Source of the DNA: Vulcanimicrobiota bacterium
GTDB lineage: Bacteria; Vulcanimicrobiota; Vulcanimicrobiia; Vulcanimicrobiales; Vulcanimicrobiaceae
DNA length: 34,540 nt
Assembly: GCA_003140855.1 (NCBI GenBank)
Contig: PLLF01000042.1
Location: forward strand, 1 to 34,540
Direction of reading: 5' to 3'
In this document: positions 3,092-33,228 of the stretch, one piece after another
Position numbering within the stretch: the first letter of the stretch is position 1
How the letters are laid out: the number at the start of each line of letters is the position of its first letter
Translations under genes and position numbers: made by a program
The notes under the pieces: model-generated
What the model was told of the DNA's origin: nothing
Database searches by the model: none
What the model saw: the letters and a program-made list of their open reading frames with translations, nothing else

Positions 3092-4168
3092 ATGAGCAAC
3101 GACGCCACACCCAAGCCGGCGACCCTGAAGTTGGCCGATTTGAAGCTCTCCTTCGGCGGGCCGGCAGCGAGCGAGACCGCGCCGGATGCACAGAAGTCTC
3201 CGTCCGGCGAGTCTGAGGACCGCCCGATCGAAGCGAAGGTCGTGATCGTCGGGTCAGGCCCTGCGGGTCTGACTGCGGCCATATACGCCGCGCGCGCCGA
3301 CCTGGCGCCGGTGGTCATCGGGGGGCTCGAGAGCGGCGGCCAGCTCATGATCACGAGCGACGTCGAGAACTATCCCGGCTACGCCGACGGGATCATGGGG
3401 CCCGAGATGATGGCCGACTTCCGCCGCCAGGCGGAGCGCTTCGGTGCCGACTTCGTCACCGACAACGTGACGAAGGTCGACTTCTCCGAACGGCCGTTCC
3501 GCATCTGGGTCGAGAACGACGAGTACCAGGCCGACGCGGTCATCGTCGCGACCGGCGCGAGCGCGCGCTGGCTCGGCATTCCCGGCGAAGCGCGGCTGCG
3601 CGGCCGGGGCGTCTCGACGTGCGCGACCTGCGACGGCGCATTTTTCCGTGAGAAACACATCGTCGTGGTCGGCGGCGGTGATTCGGCGATGGAGGAAGCG
3701 CTGTTCTTAACGCGCTTCGGTTATAAAGTGACGGTCATTCACCGGCGCGACACGCTGCGCGCGAGCAAAATCATGGCCGACCGCGCGTTTTCGCACGAGA
3801 AAATCTCGTTCGTCTGGAATACGGCGGTAGAAGAAGCGATCGGCGATGACAAATTGCGCGCGCTCAAATTGCGCAACACCGTCGATGGCACGCGTTCCGA
3901 TCTCGAGGCGGATGCGCTCTTTATAGCGATCGGACACGATCCGAACACGGCCATCTTCAAGGGGCAACTGGATTTGGATGCGATGGGTTACATCGCTTCG
4001 CCCGACGGTGTGTCCACGAACGTCGAAGGCGTTTTTGTAGCGGGCGATGTCAACGATCTTCGTTACAAACAGGCCGTCACCGCGGCCGGCGCGGGCTGCC
4101 GCGCCGCGATGGACGCGGAGAAATATCTCGAAGCGCTCGAGTTTCCGATCGAAGAAGCGATAGCCTAA
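3092..4168 (+). CDS. trxB: Thioredoxin reductase (possible chimera)
   Basis: A 358-residue FAD/NADPH thioredoxin-disulfide reductase. Residues 1-47 are a Pro/Ser/Glu-rich extension absent from most TrxB proteins. The FAD Rossmann motif GSGPAG follows at about 54-59, the redox pair C177-A-T-C180 is intact, the NADPH motif GGGDSA lies near residue 194, and the C-terminal FAD motif with AGDV is near 320. It reduces thioredoxin, and so indirectly peroxiredoxins. Base usage changes inside the gene. All six Lys codons before about 3650 are AAG while eight of the nine after are AAA, and T/A third positions rise sharply. The 5' part matches genes to the left and the 3' part genes to the right. The reading frame and fold are continuous, so a natural hybrid is possible, but an assembly join in a conserved region is more likely. 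Confidence 0.9.
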   Translation: MSNDATPKPATLKLADLKLSFGGPAASETAPDAQKSPSGESEDRPIEAKVVIVGSGPAGLTAAIYAARADLAPVVIGGLESGGQLMITSDVENYPGYADGIMGPEMMADFRRQAERFGADFVTDNVTKVDFSERPFRIWVENDEYQADAVIVATGASARWLGIPGEARLRGRGVSTCATCDGAFFREKHIVVVGGGDSAMEEALFLTRFGYKVTVIHRRDTLRASKIMADRAFSHEKISFVWNTAVEEAIGDDKLRALKLRNTVDGTRSDLEADALFIAIGHDPNTAIFKGQLDLDAMGYIASPDGVSTNVEGVFVAGDVNDLRYKQAVTAAGAGCRAAMDAEKYLEALEFPIEEAIA

Positions 4169-31511: not shown

Positions 31512-32801
31512 ATGACCAAGCGGAGATATCTCGTTTTCCTGCTCATGTTCCTGAGTATCTTCGTCAATTATATGGACCGGGTGAACTTCGCGGTCTCGAT
31601 TCCCGCGATCAGGCATCAATTTGGCTTCAGTTTGCAGCAGATCGGCGCGATCGCATTTGCGTGGGGAATCGCTTATGCTATCTTCAATTTCCCGGGCGGC
31701 TGGTTGGTGGACCGCCTTGGTTTGCGCTGGTCGCTGCCGCTGCTACTGGGCTGGTGGTCGGCCTTTACCATCGCCACGCCCTTCGCCGGCACGCTGGCCG
31801 GGTGGTTTGGGATACGCGCGTTAATGGGCGCGGGCGAAGCGCCGATCTGGCCGATCAACGCCAAGTGCGCGAATTCGTGGGCGGCACCGGCCGAACGCTC
31901 GACGCTCTATACGTGGGCAGGCTCCGGCCAATATCTGGGTCCGGCGATCGGCACGTTGCTGGCCGGCTTGATTCTCGTCAGATTCGGCTGGCAATGGACG
32001 TTCATTTCGTTCGGCCTAGCCGGTTTGGTGATTCTGCCGTTCTGGATTTTTGTGGTGCGCGATCGCCCGGCGCTGGATCCGCGGGTCAACGCCGCAGAAA
32101 TCGCTCGCATCGGTAACCGCGCGCCGCATGATGAGAAAGCTGACTGGCCCGGCGTCAGAAACGTGCTTTTCAGCCGCACCGGCTTTGGGATGCTGCTCAT
32201 CTACATCACGTTCGGCTACATCCTCTTTACGTTCTTATACTGGGTGCCGAGCTACATGTTTTACACATTTCACATGAGCATTCTCAAGAGTTCGGCATGG
32301 GCGAGTCTCGGTGCGCTGCTTGGTTTTGCCGGGTTCATTCTTTCCGGTCCGTTCAACGATCGGCTTGTCGCGCGCTTCGACCGGCTCACCGCACGCCGAA
32401 TCGGTACCGCGGCGCCGATGGTTTGTACGATGCTCTGTATGGTGCTTTCGATCTTCAGCGCGCGAGCGGGACTCGGCGGACTGACGGCCGTGCTGATCGG
32501 ACTCGCGCAACTGATGATGAATCTGACCGTCGGCGCTTGGGCGGTGAACATTATCGACATCTCGCCAAACCAAGCCTCGACCGGCTTCGTCTACGGCGTG
32601 TACAACGGCGCACTGAATATCATGGGCGCGCTCAACTCGCTCATACTTACAGCGATCGCGACCCGCTTTGGCTTCCCGGCGGCGTTCGGCAGCGCAATCG
32701 TCTTCATGCTCATTTTTCTCATCAGCATTCTCTTCATCGTCGACCGGCCGAGCTACACGCGGCTGATCGCCCGGGCGGAACTATCCCGCGGTGCGGCGTA
32801 A
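31512..32801 (+). CDS. MFS transporter, anion:cation symporter (ACS) type
   Basis: A 429-residue transporter with twelve predicted membrane segments. TM1 has YLVFLLMFLSIFVNYMDRVNFAVSIPAI, with the DRxN pattern of the ACS family, and GGWLVDRLGLRW is the loop 2-3 motif. The ACS group carries hexuronates, glucarate, phthalate or other organic anions with H+ or Na+, but the substrate cannot be inferred. The stop is 10 bases before the peroxiredoxin start. Confidence 0.85.
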   Translation: MTKRRYLVFLLMFLSIFVNYMDRVNFAVSIPAIRHQFGFSLQQIGAIAFAWGIAYAIFNFPGGWLVDRLGLRWSLPLLLGWWSAFTIATPFAGTLAGWFGIRALMGAGEAPIWPINAKCANSWAAPAERSTLYTWAGSGQYLGPAIGTLLAGLILVRFGWQWTFISFGLAGLVILPFWIFVVRDRPALDPRVNAAEIARIGNRAPHDEKADWPGVRNVLFSRTGFGMLLIYITFGYILFTFLYWVPSYMFYTFHMSILKSSAWASLGALLGFAGFILSGPFNDRLVARFDRLTARRIGTAAPMVCTMLCMVLSIFSARAGLGGLTAVLIGLAQLMMNLTVGAWAVNIIDISPNQASTGFVYGVYNGALNIMGALNSLILTAIATRFGFPAAFGSAIVFMLIFLISILFIVDRPSYTRLIARAELSRGAA

Positions 32802-32811
32802 CCGGAGTCAT

Positions 32812-33228
32812 ATGCTTACTGAAGGCGCGAAAATGCCGGAGCTCGACGTCGTCGACGACGCGGGTAGAAAACTCAACACCCGCGAGCTGCTGGGCAAACC
32901 CCTGGTCTTATGGTTTTATCCCAAAGACGACACACCCGGTTGAACGAGCGAAGGGTCGCAGTTTCGCGACTCCATCGACCGGTTTAAAGCGAAGGGCGCG
33001 GAGATCGTCGGAGTCAGCAAAGACTCCGTAGCGAGCCACCAAAAGTTCAAAGCCAAATACTCCCTACCGTTTCCGCTCATCGCGGACACGGACGGCAAGA
33101 TGTACAACGCTTTTGGAGTAGACGCGCGCACGACGTTTCTGATCGATCCTGACGGCACCGTCCGTAAAGTTTGGCCGAAGGTCAGCGTATCCGGCCACGC
33201 CGAGGATGTCTACAACTCGCTAGCCTAG
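32812..33228 (+). CDS. Peroxiredoxin (BCP/PrxQ-like), putative selenoprotein with in-frame TGA
   Basis: Reading from ATG 32812 (GGAG 4 nt upstream) through one in-frame TGA at 32941-32943 to TAG at 33226-33228 gives 138 residues. Before the TGA is VLWFYPKDDTPG and after it TSEGSQFRDS, so the TGA falls exactly on the peroxidatic Cys (residue 44) of the invariant peroxiredoxin motif TPGCTxE. The rest of the AhpC/TSA fold is intact (AEIVGVSKDSVASHQKF, FPLIADTDGKMYNAFGV, TTFLIDPDGTV) with no other stop or frameshift. A SECIS-like hairpin follows the TGA. TGA is an ordinary stop in other genes here, so Sec insertion is the best reading. No resolving Cys is visible. A segment of about 12 residues before TTFLIDP is shorter than in E. 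coli BCP. Alternatives are a point-mutated pseudogene or a sequencing error TGC to TGA. Confidence 0.8.
32941..32977 (+). promoter_or_regulatory. Candidate bacterial SECIS element
   Basis: Just after the in-frame TGA (32941-32943), GGGTCGC (32953-32959) pairs with GCGACTC (32966-32972) as a 7-bp stem with one G-U pair, closing a hexaloop AGTTTC (32960-32965). A lower 3-bp stem CGA/TCG (32945-32947 with 32975-32977) is possible. The loop begins 16 nt after the TGA and contains GU, as in bacterial SECIS elements such as that of E. coli fdhF, which SelB recognises. Confidence 0.6.

Follow-up and report, generated by a model that had tools for sequence, protein, structure and literature searches.

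A conserved in-frame UGA in a BCP/PrxQ peroxiredoxin of Eremiobacterota/Vulcanimicrobiota is very probably a selenocysteine codon

Can a TGA codon that falls exactly on the catalytic residue of a peroxiredoxin (Prx) gene be read as selenocysteine (Sec)? The question is raised by a locus in the 34,540-nucleotide stretch of DNA analyzed here (the window), the opening part of contig C49 in a Vulcanimicrobiota assembly of 2.28 Mb that is 94% complete. The frame comprises 138 codons with a single in-frame TGA, codon 44, in the context YPKDDTPG-TGA-TSEGSQFRD, and its translation runs MLTEGAKMPELDVVDDAGRKLNTRELLGKPLVLWFYPKDDTPG-U-TSEGSQFRD...NSLA. A preliminary description of the locus had claimed a BCP-like frame with one TGA at the peroxidatic Cys and with a start, ribosome binding site and stop of its own. 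Our reading of the ORF bears this out (Table 1), as does alignment, in which both sides of the TGA match BCP/PrxQ peroxiredoxins end to end. The active-site signature is intact (P37xxxT41xxU44), and the protein has zero cysteines. From the sequence evidence, we consider it nearly certain that the gene encodes a Sec-containing BCP/PrxQ (COG1225) peroxiredoxin, with UGA44 decoded via SelB, Sec-tRNA(UCA) and a SECIS hairpin.

Table 1. Coordinates of the features discussed; positions without a contig name are those of the window.
Feature	Location	Strand	Details
Predicted Sec-containing 1-Cys-type BCP/PrxQ peroxiredoxin gene	32812..33228	+	ATG start, TAG stop; 138 residues, Sec44
UGA read as selenocysteine, peroxidatic position (TxxU of PxxxTxxU)	32941..32943	+	orthologue comparison
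Trp34 codon (TGG), 10 residues N-terminal to Sec44	32911..32913	+	orthologue comparison
Candidate bacterial SECIS hairpin	32953..32972	+	7-bp stem GGGUCGC/GCGACUC; loop AGUUUC 32960-32965
GGAG, likely ribosome binding site	32804..32807	+	4 nt 5' of ATG; read from sequence
MFS-type transporter gene	31512..32801	+	10 nt gap upstream of Prx; by inspection
selA	C1:3758-5080		516 bits; adjoins selB
selB	C1:1904-3739		310 bits; adjoins selA
tRNA-Sec (selC)	C25:34546-34635		73 bits vs 47-bit threshold; anticodon TCA (UCA)
selD	C56, G000:C56:45474 (L097:3475)		374 bits; one in-frame TGA

Membership of the read-through protein in the BCP/PrxQ group is indicated by its domain, its active site and its fold. 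It matches the complete AhpC-TSA domain (PF00578) at 118.7 bits against a cut-off of 26 bits, carries the PxxxTxxC/U active site in its U form, and its closest PDB sequences are BCP/PrxQ proteins (5enu, 1.5e-35). An AlphaFold2 model built from the protein's own family alignment (pLDDT 96) has the PrxQ fold and superposes on PDB BCP/PrxQ structures with TM scores of 0.89-0.96; in this model, residue 44 is predicted to be the first of the helix that opens the peroxidatic site. The protein falls short of the cut-offs of two NCBIfam PrxQ equivalogs (NF053650, 127 of 260 bits; NF006960, 90 of 140 bits), which places it in the broad BCP family but outside those named equivalogs, and it likewise scores 51 bits against peroxi_PrxU (NF040737), below the cut-off of 270.

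We searched for orthologues in 149 genomes of the Eremiobacterota/Vulcanimicrobiota phylum, many of which have no Prx orthologue. All five congeners having the gene (90-91% identity) carry the single TGA. Across the phylum, an orthologue whose only internal stop is a TGA in this column is found in 35 genomes from three families, with identities reaching down to 37-50%. The preliminary description had proposed looking at what homologues hold at codon 44: read base by base in 69 Prx genes, this column is TGA in 35 and TGC or TGT in 34, every Cys orthologue read (34/34) having its Cys codon in the UGA column, as expected of Sec/Cys pairs. It had also guessed at an Eremiobacterota-like phylum, and at 91% identity the closest relatives bearing a name are indeed Candidatus Eremiobacterota MAGs. 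Such MAGs also make up most named relatives among the public genomes, many coming from palsa and some from Antarctica according to their titles.

The same comparison bears on whether the TGA is merely a Cys codon turned into a stop in a single assembly or lineage, either in a pseudogene or through sequencing error, leaving only a 43-residue stub. TGC or TGT becomes TGA by a single-base change, and MAG assemblies do have errors, but the identical TGA recurs in independent assemblies, making a sequencing error at codon 44 very unlikely, and it does so across families and at low identity. The codons downstream are conserved as well: among six congeners, dN/dS is ~0.10 past the TGA (codons 45-137) and 0.04 before it, which suggests that the post-TGA codons are translated and functionally important. 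Decayed frames in close relatives, named beforehand as grounds for dropping the Sec reading, were absent from the relatives read. Together with the complete Sec system of the genome, these observations leave a pseudogene or error next to no probability, and we regard that reading as refuted by the conserved TGA in independent assemblies and the purifying selection past it. The preliminary description had argued from the improbability of a nonsense mutation striking precisely the Cys codon; its conclusion holds, but that argument is not the strongest proof, as the comparison across relatives weighs more.

Decoding of UGA as Sec calls on selA, selB, selD and tRNA-Sec, which the preliminary description had suggested looking for in the same genome, and all four are there (Table 1). 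The selD gene itself has its in-frame TGA at the usual active-site Cys (SSCAG-U-ASK), and about 32 nt 3' of it lies a strong hairpin whose loop is GGUCC. With both selD and Prx bearing a TGA and a hairpin, two separate genes of the genome show the Sec signature. Prx and SelD are the only selenoprotein genes that our family searches found, an incomplete view of the selenoproteome; the single PF00384 molybdopterin match of the genome has no TGA, and its other PF00578 matches have no in-frame stop. Another SelB, with 55% identity to the one on C1, lies at L019:1630-3288 (G000:C52), where it is truncated because its 3.3 kb contig ends, and has a transposase-like ORF beside it; the genome may have two selB genes, or the contig may have strayed in from another Eremiobacterota species.

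UGA is reassigned in some bacteria, and Cys-charged selC-like tRNAs are known elsewhere, so the codon might be read as another residue, such as Trp or Cys, by a suppressor tRNA or under a reassigned code. However, TGA is a normal stop elsewhere in the window, ending 9 of 28 genes (picked by inspection), the sole TGA of Prx sits where Cys or Sec belongs, and the full selABCD set is accompanied by a SECIS-like hairpin. We therefore judge a residue other than Sec highly improbable, and a reassigned code was rejected on the comparative evidence. Because the genome has the decoding machinery and close relatives keep the codon, the TGA in Prx is almost certainly Sec, in agreement with the preliminary description, whose Sec reading is supported by the sel genes, the homologue column and the selection past the TGA.

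We asked how well the sequence just 3' of the TGA fits the bacterial SECIS (bSECIS) model quoted in PMC13188914, which specifies a stem of 4-16 bp, a loop of 3-9 nt with a G in its first two positions, a distance of 16-37 nt from the UGA and an MFE <= -7.5. The hairpin of the window has a 7-bp stem and a loop of 6 nt, with G as its second base, that starts 16 nt after the UGA; with an MFE of -17.1 kcal/mol, it fits the model on all four counts. Since the conserved SQFRD codons by themselves favor part of this hairpin, two controls were used, synonymous recoding and comparison of Sec with Cys family members. The stem is stronger than those of synonymous recodings (p=0.02), and a model-fitting hairpin with an upper-stem energy <= -7.5 kcal/mol is found in 60% of Sec forms vs 3% of Cys forms (Mann-Whitney test on stem energies, p=2e-5). 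Among relatives, compensatory changes have altered both sides of 3/7 stem pairs. Total fold energy, with the amino-acid sequence controlled, did not separate Sec from Cys forms (p=0.16), as part of the hairpin already follows from the SQFRD codons, and an Rfam search of the window returned no match.

About one third of the Sec orthologues, among them L058-L061 and L065 (G099, G097, G098, G088, G089), do not have a good unbroken-stem match to the bSECIS model, which reflects the limits of either the model or the evidence. The class-level relatives of family f3 (L071-L079) form a separate Sec Prx clade with TSGU, TAGU or TPGU sites. Their hairpin, AGUCAGC-GGUCN-GCUGACU, includes an A-U to G-C swap and has a GGUC loop at 28 nt from the UGA, in contrast to the AGUUYC loop at 16 nt in the clade of the window.

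Components of the Sec system are widespread in the phylum: selA is found in 121/149 genomes, selD in 118/149, and tRNA-Sec above threshold in 102/149. By our count from the table of genomes, 74 of the 118 selD-bearing genomes have one TGA in that gene. Among genomes with the TGA form of Prx, all have selD (35/35) and nearly all have selA (33/35), whereas selA is absent from 14/62 genomes with the Cys form (Fisher one-sided p=0.026). The two exceptions, G024 (listed as 96% complete, in 370 contigs) and G072 (63% complete), have neither selA nor selB and are outside the set of tRNA-Sec matches; both keep a selD with its own TGA, which makes gaps in the assembly a likelier cause than gene loss. 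One in-frame TGA also occurs in the selA match of a distant member of the phylum (G134:C21:69523-70815); this may reflect Sec coding, an error or gene decay.

We propose that UGA44 would be decoded by SelB-bound Sec-tRNA(UCA), directed by the SECIS hairpin, with selenium supplied through SelA and SelD, the latter itself a putative selenoprotein. As in the family generally, the Sec44 selenolate would attack peroxide and be converted to a selenenic acid. Both resolving Cys positions of atypical 2-Cys PrxQ proteins (CP+5 in alpha2, and Cys84 of XcPrxQ in alpha3) are occupied by other residues, Ser49 and Lys80. With no Cys there or elsewhere in the protein, an internal disulfide or selenenylsulfide would be impossible, judging from the translated frame, and an outside thiol, presumably thioredoxin, a glutaredoxin-like protein or a small thiol, must reduce the selenenic acid. 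By analogy, the enzyme is expected to run a 1-Cys-type cycle with Sec, that is, a 1-Sec mechanism. The window also holds a thioredoxin-reductase-like gene with a CATCDG motif (3092-4168), a possible source of reductant.

A selenoprotein of this kind might instead act mainly as a peroxide sensor or thiol oxidase relay, a role for which its lack of any cysteine and the presence in the genome of several Cys-type or stop-free AhpC/TSA-domain proteins could be cited. Given that the PxxxTxxU signature is intact, that the fold is plainly that of PrxQ and that no sensor partner adjoins the gene, we think such a role unlikely and favor a scavenging peroxidase. The gene immediately upstream encodes an MFS-type transporter (Table 1); of four congener loci examined, three have it next to Prx in this order, and the two genes are probably co-transcribed.

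Exchange between Sec and Cys appears to be accompanied by a second residue. The 35 Sec orthologues all have Trp at position 34, and the 34 Cys orthologues read all have Tyr there. Among loci fetched by conserved motifs from this and other phyla, 28/30 Trp-bearing proteins had the TGA, the two others being from sphingomonads; Tyr-Sec proteins lay outside the reach of this fetch. With both columns left out of the tree, the Sec label needs ~11 changes, of which well-supported branches force three, and the Trp label needs 10. An independent-pairs test pointed in the right direction but did not reach significance at three supported switches, too few for significance, and so we offer the Trp-Sec/Tyr-Cys link as a hypothesis. 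A broader scenario is that Sec is old and widespread in Eremiobacterota/Vulcanimicrobiota and that the BCP Prx has gone back and forth between Sec and Cys on several occasions, always coupled to a Trp/Tyr change at position 34; we regard it as evenly balanced. If true, Trp34 would be a Sec-specific active-site adaptation, or else a gate allowing the swap to be tolerated, and one that is also found in other phyla. The pattern provides a testable structural hypothesis on the requirements for selenium use by a peroxidase.

Published surveys associate Sec use with low oxygen (PMC1794560), and repeated Sec/Cys swaps within one family of this phylum could therefore serve as a natural series on what drives the choice. 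The enzyme is of a known kind, and what seems new is scale and place, with Sec apparently in use across Eremiobacterota/Vulcanimicrobiota: an apparently complete Sec system, selenoprotein SelD included, extends over a largely uncultured soil and permafrost phylum. Our literature search, which covered few subscription papers, found no earlier report of Sec in Eremiobacterota, Vulcanimicrobiota or WPS-2. At this locus, standard gene callers would overlook the enzyme and give only the 43-residue stub.

Among the selenoprotein families already established is the TxxU peroxiredoxin of COG1225/Bcp (PMC1088965, PMC1794560, PMC9312934). The window Prx shows all of the defining traits that we tested, departing only in the strict NCBIfam equivalog cut-offs and in the resolving cysteine, an optional trait. 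Family members from Geobacter, Anaeromyxobacter, Syntrophobacter and the Sargasso Sea share with the window Prx the domain family, the UGA in PxxxTxxU, a SECIS-type hairpin downstream and selABCD in the genome (PMC1088965, PMC1794560, PMC9312934, PMC13188914). The window Prx differs from them in its host phylum, Eremiobacterota, and its congener clade has zero cysteines and is missing a ~13-residue stretch that other Sec-Prx members have. PrxU of Eubacterium acidaminophilum is, as cited in PMC13188914 from Sohling 2001, also a Sec peroxiredoxin, but of another Prx subfamily according to NF040737, with which it is equated by name only. Like the E. coli fdhF-type bSECIS, the window hairpin lies just after the UGA and has a small loop with a G at its start; this loop is AGUUUC rather than GGUCU, and it fits the general model only, whereas the f3 relatives and the genome's own SelD have the GGUC-type loop of the E. 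coli element. In fold and active-site layout, close parallels are PrxQ/BCP of Xanthomonas campestris and Burkholderia ambifaria (5enu) and Bcp1 of Sulfolobus (TM 0.89-0.94, 37-43% identity). These proteins use Cys where the window Prx is predicted to use Sec, and XcPrxQ resolves with Cys84, at which position the window Prx has Lys80.
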